Of a DNA stretch of 45,643 nt, positions 41,507 through 45,643 are shown piece after piece (the first letter of the stretch is position 1; each line of letters starts with the position of its first letter). Source of the DNA: an uncultured Clostridia bacterium (GTDB taxonomy: Bacteria > Bacillota > Clostridia > Christensenellales > Borkfalkiaceae). The stretch is from NCBI GenBank assembly GCA_947587085.1, contig CANPXX010000006.1, positions 1-45,643 on the forward strand, given 5' to 3'. The translations under genes and the position numbers were made by a program. The notes beneath the pieces are model-generated. The model was not told the DNA's origin. It searched no databases and was given only the letters and a program-made list of their open reading frames with translations.

Positions 41507-43333
41507 TCAGCCTAATTTCGCTTTTGCGCGCGCCTTTGCCCGCAATTCCCCATCCAGAATGCGCTTGCGGATGCGCACGTTCAAAGGCGTCACTTCGAGG
41601 AGCTCGTCCTCGCCGATGAATTCGAGCGCCTCTTCGAGGCTCAGCTTGCGCGGCGGGATGAGCCGAAGCGCGTCGTCCGCGGAGGAAGAGCGGGTGTTCG
41701 TGAGGTGCTTTTGTTTGCACACGTTCACGTTGATGTCCCCCTCCTTCGGCGCCACGCCGATGACCATTCCCTCATAGACGGGCGTGCCCGCGCCGATGAA
41801 GAGCGAGCCGCGCCCCTGCGCGTTGAACAGCCCGTAGGTGACCGCTTCCCCCGTCTCGAACGCGACGAGCGACCCCGTGAGTTTGCGCGTGATCTCCCCC
41901 TTATAGGGCTGATATTCGAAGAACACCGAGCTCATGACGCCCTCGCCCTTGGTGTCCGTCAGAAATTCGCTCTTGTAGCCGAACAGTCCCCGCGCGGGCA
42001 CGAGGAATTCGAGGCGCATCCGCGAGCCCATCGCGCTCATGTGCACGAGCTCGCCCTTGCGCGTTCCCATGCTCTCGAACACCACGCCCGTGCCGTTCTC
42101 GGGGACGTCCACGATGAGGCGCTCCACGGGCTCATACCGTTCGCCGTCTATCTCCTTATAGAGAACTTTCGGCGCGCTGACCTGAAATTCGTACCCCTCG
42201 CGGCGCATCGTCTCGATGAGGATGCTGAGGTGCATCTCCCCGCGCCCGCTCACGCGGAACGAGTCGGTGCTGTCGGTGTCCTCGACGCGGAGAGACACAT
42301 CGCGCAGGAGCTCCCGATACAGCCGCTCGCGCAGATGGCGGGTGGTGACAAACTTCCCCTCCTTCCCCGCGAAGGGCGAATCGTTGACGGAGAAGATCAT
42401 CTCCACCGTCGGGTCGGAGATCTTCACGAAGGGCGCGGGTTCGACCGCATCGACCGCGCAGACGGTATCGCCGATGTTGATCTTTTCGAGTCCCGAAAAG
42501 CATACGATGTCGCCCGCCTTGGCGCTCTCGCAGGGGACGCGTTCCAACCCCTCGATCTCATAGAGATTGACGAGCTTCCCGCGCAGATCGACGTCCTTTC
42601 GGTTATAGTTACAGACGGCGACCTCGGCGCCCGCGTGCGCAACGCCGCGCTCGATGCGTCCGATGCCGATGCGCCCCACATAGTCGTTGTAGTCGATGGA
42701 CGAGACGAGCAGTTGCAGGGGCGCCGTCTCGTCGAGTTCGAGGGGCGGGAAGTGCGACAGGATGGTATCGAAGAGCGGTTTGAGGTCGGTCCCCTCCTCC
42801 TCGTCCGAGAGGGAGGAGGTGCCGCTCCTGCCCGAACAGAACACGAAGGGGCTCTCGAGCTGTTCGTCCGAGGCGTTGAGGTCCATGAGGAGTTCGAGCA
42901 CCTCGTCCTCCACCTCCTTCACGCGCGCGTCGGGGCGGTCGATCTTGTTCACGACGATGATGAGCTTGTGCCCCATCTCGAGCGCCTTCTGCGTGACGAA
43001 GCGCGTCTGCGGCATGGGACCCTCCGCCGCGTCCACGAGGATGAGCACGCCCGAGACCATTTTCAGAACGCGCTCTACCTCGCCCGAAAAGTCGGCGTGC
43101 CCGGGCGTATCGATGATGTTGATCTTGACGCCGCGATAGTGGATGGAAGTGTTCTTCGCGAGGATGGTGATGCCGCGTTCCCGCTCCAGATCCCCGCTGT
43201 CCATCACGCGCTCTTCCACGACCTGGTTCTCGCGGAAGGTCCCGCCCTGCTTCAACATCTGATCGACGAGGGTGGTCTTGCCGTGATCGACGTGCGCAAT
43301 GATGGCAATGTTTCTCAAATCTTCTCTGATCAT
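41507..43333 (-). CDS. typA: Translational GTPase TypA/BipA
   Basis: MIREDLRNIAIIAHVDHGKTTLVDQMLKQGGTFRENQ; DSGDLERERGITILAKN. Confidence 0.97.
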   Translation of the reverse strand: MIREDLRNIAIIAHVDHGKTTLVDQMLKQGGTFRENQVVEERVMDSGDLERERGITILAKNTSIHYRGVKINIIDTPGHADFSGEVERVLKMVSGVLILVDAAEGPMPQTRFVTQKALEMGHKLIIVVNKIDRPDARVKEVEDEVLELLMDLNASDEQLESPFVFCSGRSGTSSLSDEEEGTDLKPLFDTILSHFPPLELDETAPLQLLVSSIDYNDYVGRIGIGRIERGVAHAGAEVAVCNYNRKDVDLRGKLVNLYEIEGLERVPCESAKAGDIVCFSGLEKINIGDTVCAVDAVEPAPFVKISDPTVEMIFSVNDSPFAGKEGKFVTTRHLRERLYRELLRDVSLRVEDTDSTDSFRVSGRGEMHLSILIETMRREGYEFQVSAPKVLYKEIDGERYEPVERLIVDVPENGTGVVFESMGTRKGELVHMSAMGSRMRLEFLVPARGLFGYKSEFLTDTKGEGVMSSVFFEYQPYKGEITRKLTGSLVAFETGEAVTYGLFNAQGRGSLFIGAGTPVYEGMVIGVAPKEGDINVNVCKQKHLTNTRSSSADDALRLIPPRKLSLEEALEFIGEDELLEVTPLNVRIRKRILDGELRAKARAKAKLG

Positions 43334-43465: not shown

Positions 43466-44923
43466 CTACCGCCGCTTTTCCTCATAGTACAGCGTCACCG
43501 TGCGCGCGGCGGAAACGGAGACGCTCTCGGAATACAGCTTCGCATTCTCTTTATCGATTTCCTCTCGTTCAAATTCAACGATCAAAACCCGCTCCGTATC
43601 CAAATGCTCCAAATTATAATTATCCGCCTTGTAACTAAATGCAACCGCAACATAGGCATGGATTTCTTCGAGCGTATCGCCGTAACGAATCAACATCATA
43701 TAGTTGCTTTTTGTGCAGGAGCCCATATAAAATGCCGAGGATACTGACGAATTTTCGGTCTTATATCCAAACAGAACCTCGGCGTTCTCGTATTCAGGAA
43801 TTGGGTCTGCTTTATCCCGTATGTCATTCCCCTGGCAGCCGTCCTTTGCAAGTTTTTTCAAAACATTTTGCGCCAAGATTACAAATTGAGGGTCATCTTC
43901 TTCGGTTGACCTGTTACAATTCGAACTATCGAGTTTTTTTAGAGAATTTTTTTGATTTAAGGATTCTGCAAATTCATTTGGCGTCAACTTGTTTACCGTA
44001 TAATCTACATTTATCTTAAAATAATCATAAGTCCTTGAATTGTTCAAGCTGGAGCAATAAGACCCAAACCCTAACCCGTCATCCTTGTCATTTACATGTG
44101 TTACTTTTATGAGTTCTAAGGTTACCCCATAATTTGCCTTTGTCAAAATGCTGTTGTCTGCTTTTAGCGTTTCCTCCAACGTCTTTGCAAGGAGCGGAAT
44201 GTTGTATTTTCTTTGCCCGTTCACCGTCTCATAGACGTATTGGGCGACGTCTTTATAGGCGGGAAGCGTCAGCGCAACTGAGCCGACCTTGGAGAGCGCG
44301 TATTCGTCCTCCCCGACCTGCCACGCGACGCCCGCGTCGTCCGTGAAGTGCAGACGGATACCATCGGCTTGGAGCTCGCCCTCCGCATATGCCGTCCATG
44401 CGATGTCGCGAAGCGCTGCAAGACAGCTCTTGGAGGTCTCCCACACTTCGCCGTCTCCGCAAAAATCGCGCTCCCATGCGTCGCCGTTTTTGGCGATGAT
44501 GTAGTTCTCCCCGCCCTTTTCCGCATAGTAGACGACCGTCCCCCCATCGGTGACCTTCACAAGATCGGAGGCATAGTCGTACTGCTTCCCGTTCGCCGTA
44601 TAGCGATAATTGTCCTTCACCTGTTCGAGAAAGCGGTCGAGCCGCGCGACCGCGTCCGCAAGCGTCTCCTCTGCGTCCTCCTCGGGCTCCTCTGTCTTAT
44701 CCCCGTCGGGCTCGGAAGGAGTCGAGGGATTGGACGGCGTGGACGGATTCGAAGGTGTGGAGGGATTCGACGGAGTCGATGGCGTGGATGGTGTGGACGG
44801 TGTGGTGGGCGTTTGAGGGGTCTGCGCCGAGGGATCTCCCCCGCCCGTACATGCGGCGATGCCGAAGCAGAGGCAAAGCGCGGTCAGCAGAGCAAACAAA
44901 ACAAGCAAAAGTTTCTTTTTCAT
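43466..44923 (-). CDS. Hypothetical lipoprotein with Thr/Pro/Ser repeat linker
   Basis: MKKKLLLVLFALLTALCLCFGIAACTGGGD lipobox; TPSTPSTPSNPSTPSNPSTPSNPSTPSEP linker. Confidence 0.85.
   Translation of the reverse strand: MKKKLLLVLFALLTALCLCFGIAACTGGGDPSAQTPQTPTTPSTPSTPSTPSNPSTPSNPSTPSNPSTPSEPDGDKTEEPEEDAEETLADAVARLDRFLEQVKDNYRYTANGKQYDYASDLVKVTDGGTVVYYAEKGGENYIIAKNGDAWERDFCGDGEVWETSKSCLAALRDIAWTAYAEGELQADGIRLHFTDDAGVAWQVGEDEYALSKVGSVALTLPAYKDVAQYVYETVNGQRKYNIPLLAKTLEETLKADNSILTKANYGVTLELIKVTHVNDKDDGLGFGSYCSSLNNSRTYDYFKINVDYTVNKLTPNEFAESLNQKNSLKKLDSSNCNRSTEEDDPQFVILAQNVLKKLAKDGCQGNDIRDKADPIPEYENAEVLFGYKTENSSVSSAFYMGSCTKSNYMMLIRYGDTLEEIHAYVAVAFSYKADNYNLEHLDTERVLIVEFEREEIDKENAKLYSESVSVSAARTVTLYYEEKRR
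44710..44820. repeat. Short tandem repeats encoding TPS/NPS linker
   Basis: Degenerate 9-12 nt units (ggcgtggac / ggattcgaa) in the lipoprotein gene. Confidence 0.8.
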
Positions 44924-44936
44924 ACAACACTCCTGA

Positions 44937-45094
44937 AAATAAAAAATAAGGACGCCTCAATATGAGACGCCCGCTTAGGGTATCCCATATTGTTGCGACA
45001 CAATTGATTTCCTTTCGCTTCAACACACAGGAAAAAGGGATACACCTACGCCGAGGTTGTAACCTGTGTGTCAATGCTTTCAATTGTGTCGCAT
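44937..45094 (-). ncRNA. Structured leader RNA / candidate riboswitch or small ncRNA
   Basis: P1 44994-45007/45080-45093 (14 bp), P2 45023-45031/45063-45071 (9 bp), pseudoknot 44980-44986 with 45037-45043 (7 bp), terminator 44950-44972 plus U-rich tract, SD and ATG of lipoprotein directly after. Confidence 0.75.
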
Positions 45095-45098
45095 GTTC

Positions 45099-45127
45099 AG
45101 TATAGCATAGCGCGCGAATTTTTGCAA
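45099..45127 (-). promoter_or_regulatory. Promoter of structured leader RNA (TTGCAA-N17-TATACT)
   Basis: Minus strand TTGCAA (45127-45122), 17-nt spacer, TATACT (45104-45099); predicted TSS at the base of P1. Confidence 0.8.
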
Positions 45128-45188: not shown

Positions 45189-45643
45189 CGCACAAGCGCG
45201 AAGTGGCGGAGGCGTAGCTCCAATTATGTCATTTGCCCGCCGCGCAGTGGCGCACAAGCGCGAAGCGCGAAGTAGCGGAGGCGTAGCTCCAATTATGTCA
45301 TTTTGAGCGGAGGCGAAGCCGAAGTCGAAAAATCTCTACCGCATTATAGCAAGGTCGAGATGTTTCGACTCGAGCGCCCGCGCCCATTGGGCGCGGGCGC
45401 TCGGCTCAACATGACAAAAAGCAACGGCTTCGCCTTACGGCTACTTCAGCGCAAAGCGCGAAGCGCCGAAGCGAAGTAGCGGAGGCGAAGTAGCGGAGGC
45501 GAAGCTCCAACAATGACATTTTGCCCGCCGCGCATGCTCCCTTCTGTCATGCCGCCCGCCGCGTAGCTCCAATTATGTCATTTTGAGCGGAGGCGAAGCC
45601 GAAGTCGAAAAATCTCTACCGCATTATAAACAAGGTCGAGATG
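45189..45643. repeat. Repeat-rich intergenic region (direct repeats plus palindromes) reaching the window edge
   Basis: 68-bp identical direct repeat at 45281-45348 and 45561-45628; partial copy at 45211-45233. Confidence 0.9.
45371..45403. repeat. 15-bp perfect GC-rich palindrome inside the repeat region
   Basis: CGAGCGCCCGCGCCC-ATT-GGGCGCGGGCGCTCG. Confidence 0.9.

Follow-up and report, generated by a model that had tools for sequence, protein, structure and literature searches.

We have found a leader RNA that is very probably a cis-acting transcription attenuator belonging to an uncatalogued, class-wide RNA family, although we have no transcript, probing, termination or ligand data for it. 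It lies on the minus strand of a 45,643-nucleotide stretch of DNA from an uncultured Clostridia bacterium (the window). Its helices, their covariation, the overlaps between them and the gene context are shown by comparative sequence analysis, and the best reading of the whole is a riboswitch-like attenuator that governs a cell-surface regulon.

The leader and its family

The leader occupies about 160 nt between a promoter and the start codon of a lipoprotein gene (Table 1). A sequence-only reading of the window had proposed most of its parts, namely a promoter of the form TTGCAA-N17-TATACT, a 14-bp outer stem (P1), a 7-bp GTATCCC/GGGATAC pseudoknot, a terminator and an antiterminator that exclude each other, and a Shine-Dalgarno sequence (SD) and ATG right after the terminator. 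We located the promoter (45099-45127, minus strand), both arms of P1, which begins 5 nt past the -10 box, both strands of the pseudoknot, which show two-sided changes in homologues, the terminator and antiterminator strands, which overlap at the terminator 5' half, and the translation signals. The inner stem (P2), given as 9 bp, is present but actually reaches 12 bp, and a small hairpin inside its loop (P3), which shares part of its 3' strand with the pseudoknot, had been overlooked. The folding z-score of the window leader is -5.9, and none of 200 shuffles folds equally well (0/200).

Table 1. Parts of the leader element and the gene that follows it (window coordinates)
Feature	Position	Strand	Remarks
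-35 hexamer TTGCAA	45122..45127	minus	read from sequence
-10 hexamer TATACT	45099..45104	minus	17-nt spacer; 5 nt ahead of P1
P1 5' arm TGCGACACAATTGA	45080..45093	minus	at inferred transcript 5' end
P1 3' arm TCAATTGTGTCGCA	44994..45007	minus	pairs with 45080-45093; P1 is 14 bp
P2 5' arm UUGACACACAGG	45063..45074	minus	P2 is 12 bp
P2 3' arm CCUGUGUGUUGA	45020..45031	minus	pairs with 45063-45074
P3 hairpin UACAACCU/AGGUGUA, loop CGGCG	45041..45061	minus	P3-only swap test (order and class sets)
Pseudoknot 5' strand GUAUCCC	45037..45043	minus	overlaps P3 3' strand
Pseudoknot 3' strand GGGAUAC	44980..44986	minus	just 3' of P1; pseudoknot is 7 bp
Antiterminator 5' strand CAAUAUGGGA	44983..44992	minus	has bases in common with pseudoknot strand
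Antiterminator partner UCUCAUAUUG	44958..44967	minus	part of terminator 5' half plus loop
Intrinsic terminator hairpin GGGCGUCUC/GAGGCGUCC	44950..44972 (44964-44972 with 44950-44958)	minus	fold and pair counts
Terminator U-rich run UUAUUUUUUAUUUU	44936..44949	minus	read from sequence
Shine-Dalgarno AGGAG	44930..44934	minus	read from sequence
Start codon ATG	44921..44923	minus	read from sequence
Regulated gene, 485-aa secreted lipoprotein	43466..44923	minus	lipobox IAAC, then Pro/Thr/Ser-rich stretch

The 485-aa lipoprotein matched no Pfam family. Directly downstream of its gene (41507-43333, minus strand) is a BipA/TypA translational GTPase, and the intergenic DNA upstream of the promoter (45194-45628) holds repeats in which GCGTAGCTCCAATTATGTCATTT is part of units of 41 nt and 68 nt; the longer unit is present twice in identical form, 280 nt apart.

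What a single sequence could not reveal is that the element is one member of a family that spans the class, recurs within genomes and has a regulon of surface proteins. BLAST found further copies in the window's own genome and dozens in congeners. We aligned 59 genus copies by eye and with MAFFT and built a covariance model (R1) from 55 of them. In the genus, R1 matches 88 of 103 genomes, a single genome holding as many as 17 copies; in the order, it matches 57 of 297 genomes, spread over 27 of 125 genera. A second model (R2), built from 69 diverse copies, matches 89 of 388 genomes of the class, in 53 of 220 sampled genera, and reaches many families that do not belong to the order; elsewhere in the phylum, about 290 genomes gave a single weak R2 match (E 3.6e-5). 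These genome counts are lower bounds, because the filters were stricter and the models had a single genus as their seed, and the covariance-model E-values are rough. The same architecture is retained in hundreds of homologues, and the P3 loop region most often reads GGCA, GGUA or GCCA across the family. The window genome holds four copies: the window copy and those at C7:39940-40083, C54:817-956 and C11:2946-3095, the last with its own promoter and with pseudoknot strands (GGCAUAUCUCC/GGAGAUGCC) that are different yet complementary.

Several features of individual copies are recorded here in their own right. The RNA occurs in tandem at L035:1226-1626, L148:545-980, L186:2356-2742 and L188:46-452, and the second copies at L035 and L186 carry their own promoter. 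Directly 3' of the terminator U-run, 33 of the 59 genus copies (L035-L094) have GCCCGC, which complements GCGGGC at the terminator 5' base; it is absent from this place in the window copy and in all copies of the class set. The family also has two matches in INPHARED, both labelled 'Bacteriophage sp.'. One such GenBank record (L211, MT835845.1) has the RNA at 2076-2233, ahead of a lipoprotein gene. The label of this record is probably wrong and the fragment bacterial, because its other genes look bacterial; from their sequences, we take them to include ClpB-like and YicC-like genes.

Paired strands and a proposed switch

The sequence-only reading held that homologues without covariation in its helices would refute a structured RNA. 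Covariation is in fact seen in P1, the pseudoknot and the terminator. Across these three helices in an alignment of 69 copies (A3), 94.6% of cells are standard pairs, compared with 77.1% for shuffled partners and no more than 54.5% for slid ones. Two-sided changes occur at 27 of 27 pairs, including all 13 counted pairs of P1 (95.2% of cells paired) and all 6 counted pairs of the pseudoknot. Among 42 matches from other orders (A4), 95.3% of cells are paired (82.0% shuffled; at most 57.4% slid), with two-sided changes at 23 of 31 pairs. The models used to fit alignments A2 to A4 included P1 and the terminator but left the pseudoknot out, so its counts owe nothing to the fitting; one caveat is that the pseudoknot columns were picked from a single member row.

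Pairing was also examined without an alignment, by comparing the duplex formed by each copy's own two strands with duplexes whose strands were exchanged between copies. In a pooled set of 75 copies, mostly order-level, own partners outperform swapped ones for the P2/P3 duplex (-19.0 versus -9.4 kcal/mol), the pseudoknot (-13.5 versus -8.8) and the antiterminator (-16.0 versus -9.4), in each case by at least 14 SD of the swapped mean; the duplex used as negative control is flat (-4.9 versus -5.1). In a separate class set, these three again fall well outside every swap. P3 on its own passes the test at both order and class level. The pseudoknot is nearly invariant among genus copies, and its own-partner excess there is accordingly small.

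These helices cannot all form at once. P3 and the pseudoknot have a common strand, with at least 3 bases shared in 154 of 157 copies; the pseudoknot and antiterminator strands share at least 3 nt in 157 of 157; and the terminator 5' half is common to the antiterminator by construction. Such overlaps imply two states, P3 with the antiterminator (read-through) or the pseudoknot with the terminator (stop). In the mechanism we propose, the element's own sigma-70 promoter would start the transcript at, or 1 to 2 bases from, the P1 5' end, and P1 and P2 would fold, displaying the P3 hairpin. The P3 3' strand has an alternative partner strand immediately downstream of P1, and pairing with it would give the pseudoknot. 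That downstream strand would double as the antiterminator 5' strand, so that with the pseudoknot formed there would be no antiterminator, the terminator would fold and the gene would be off. With P3 kept closed, the antiterminator would form and RNA polymerase would continue into the surface-protein gene. This direction of switching is inferred and has no experimental support. It is a further inference that the transcript 5' end, placed in a helix, could stabilise the mRNA.

In the window copy, fold energies without the pseudoknot are -61.4 kcal/mol with the antiterminator and -60.3 kcal/mol with the terminator, near-equal values that are, as modelled, what a poised switch predicts. Before loop costs are counted, the pseudoknot duplex contributes up to -9.5 kcal/mol; freeing its 5' strand costs the P1/P2/P3 domain only 0.8 kcal/mol. 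The folding model excludes pseudoknots, and the energies leave both the default state and the ligand-favoured state undecided.

What, then, would set the switch? That some input acts on the P1/P2/P3 domain is inferred. A small molecule is most likely, otherwise a protein or another RNA; we place a metabolite first on account of the riboswitch architecture. A protein input, in which an RNA-binding regulator holds the leader in one state after recognising sequence-conserved P1 (GCGACACAA/UUGUGUCGC) or else the P3 loop, seems unlikely but deserves serious consideration. P1 keeps much of its sequence, beyond pairing, across the class, and multi-copy leaders of one regulon would fit a dedicated regulator. 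However, we have identified no candidate regulator, and the known antiterminator-protein site families score nothing in Rfam.

Downstream genes and readings without a switch

An SD-bearing open reading frame (ORF) starts within 60 nt downstream of 115 of 161 copies; if the limit is widened to 400 nt, the number rises to 144. Among 130 downstream proteins, BspA-type leucine-rich repeats (LRR) are found in 39, zinc ribbons in 14 and Listeria-Bacteroides repeats in 12, and some also have collagen-like, S-layer or SPFH domains. In a control of 121 other ORFs from the same loci, zinc ribbons are found in 4 and LRR_5 is not among the top families listed, the last entries of which have 2 members. Lipoprotein signal-like N-termini occur in 47 of 94 downstream ORFs versus 13 of 360 background ORFs; ORFs and lipoproteins were called by simple rules, the latter by a simple N-terminal pattern. 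NCBIfam concurs, with LRR adhesins, internalin-like proteins and PARCEL surface proteins downstream; the PARCEL repeat family (TIGR02167) is matched by 19 of the 130 proteins (A5 members). PARCEL repeats are coding repeats known from surface proteins. The surface-protein link is strongest in the genus and order, and the downstream genes of other orders are more mixed. In those orders, small proteins of unknown function (MADYKRLYFHLF..., MNIKVELLKNYI...) recur downstream across genomes (L169, L172, L177, L180, L189 and L198). A PHROGs search with nine downstream proteins gave no common theme.

This gene context bears on whether the RNA acts in cis at all. The sequence-only reading had allowed for a stand-alone RNA of the raiA type, and one could more generally imagine a small RNA, raiA-type or trans-acting, with its own promoter and terminator and only incidental read-through into the gene. 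Nearly every copy does have both signals, and in 17 of the 161 copies, some of them at contig ends, no ORF was found within 400 nt. We nevertheless regard this as improbable for the family: the SD-bearing ORFs described above usually follow, the genes are strongly biased to surface proteins, a conserved antiterminator would serve no use, and neither the window nor the homologous loci searched match the raiA RNA model (RF03072). Those 17 copies, together with the 29 of 161 whose ORF lies 61-400 nt away, are evidence against a uniform leader role, and for this reason some members may be decayed or may function as RNAs in their own right.

The promoter is itself part of the family. It stands at a fixed place ahead of 155 of 158 copies, and the same test moved 50 nt upstream finds 11 of 158; among the 155, the -10-to-P1 distance is 5 in 134 and the spacer is 17 in 142. 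Conservation in the genus copies begins at the promoter, and flanks beyond -70 are 26% identical, which is chance. The family is therefore a promoter-plus-leader unit rather than a longer repeat. A dispersed mobile or repeat element (MITE- or REP-like), carrying hairpin and promoter by chance, would suit the high copy number, but these unrelated flanks lead us to reject that very improbable reading, and against it also stand the strict orientation towards genes, the covariation of overlapping alternative helices and the lack of any transposase link among the downstream families listed. Weakest of all and likewise rejected is ribosome-mediated attenuation by a leader peptide, for which the terminator/antiterminator arrangement is present, but an SD with a frame of at least 5 codons lies inside the leader in only 7 of 161 copies, and P1 at the inferred transcript start leaves no room for an upstream SD.

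Relation to known RNA classes

A riboswitch-like architecture that fits no known class had already been suggested from the window sequence, with an Rfam match named as what would remove its novelty. The suggestion is supported by the covariation and swap tests and by the searches. No Rfam 15 covariance model matched the element at gathering score in the whole window; the 281-nt region, at E up to 10, gave nothing but chance matches; the element was unmatched in 20 order loci and 20 class loci; and at E up to 5 on five loci, nothing on the element came near gathering score. The T-box model (RF00230) matched none of the elements, though an unrelated T-box lies elsewhere in L174. No paper was found that links riboswitches with BspA/LRR proteins or with a guessed name for the order, nor does any paper contain the core sequence string. 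Candidate lists in PMC11109978 and PMC8040213 contain the same kind of motif, a leader hairpin with a terminator; their main texts, which are all we can speak for, have no motif described like this one, and an unnamed listing in their supplementary tables is not excluded. By 'uncatalogued' we mean that the element is found neither in Rfam 15 nor in the main texts searched.

Likeness to terminating riboswitches with a pseudoknotted aptamer is one of kind, not of family. The element shares with them a 5' leader, a pseudoknot that excludes the antiterminator, an intrinsic terminator, an SD and ORF, and many loci per genome, some in tandem. It differs in that it has no known aptamer core and no identified ligand, and its promoter is fixed 5 nt from P1, so that the switch starts at or near the transcript 5' end. 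The raiA RNA, a structured RNA of Gram-positive bacteria, likewise has a pseudoknot; the present element differs in its multiple copies and in leading surface-protein genes, as well as in lacking an Rfam match.

Among signals with a similar regulon, c-di-GMP is the best known. Its riboswitches, GEMM-I and GEMM-II, occur in many copies per genome and control surface and adhesion proteins in Clostridia, and in this they are alike. However, neither GEMM covariance model matched the window, the 281-nt region or the 20 order and 20 class loci. In addition, no GGDEF was found in the window genome (G000) or in five congeners with 11-17 RNA copies each (G002, G009, G020, G030 and G033); the assemblies checked are 93-99% complete. 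Because genomes rich in copies lack GGDEF enzymes, we consider c-di-GMP unlikely as the input and reject it as the general ligand.

Two criteria for a riboswitch are met: the family has a conserved, structured 5' leader with covariation, and its expression platform is exclusive with part of the aptamer fold (157/157; swap tests). It is tempting to go further, to a new riboswitch class, spread widely through one bacterial class, that responds to an unassigned metabolite or signal other than c-di-GMP and co-switches BspA-like LRR, InlB-repeat, collagen-like and zinc-ribbon surface proteins from up to 17 independent copies in a genome of less than 2 Mb. Without ligand-binding data, we can offer this only tentatively, as a possibility to which we stop just short of giving an even chance.

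For the host-facing adhesins of such uncultured bacteria, no common control has been known so far. A single RNA class ahead of many surface genes, in which promoter and switch form one unit, defines a regulon and points to an input that can be tested. That a class this large should turn up in a well-mined phylum indicates that Rfam still misses major leader families, and the full covarying set of P3, pseudoknot, antiterminator and terminator provides a clean model for switching studies. The identity of the ligand would reveal the signal by which these bacteria alter their surface.
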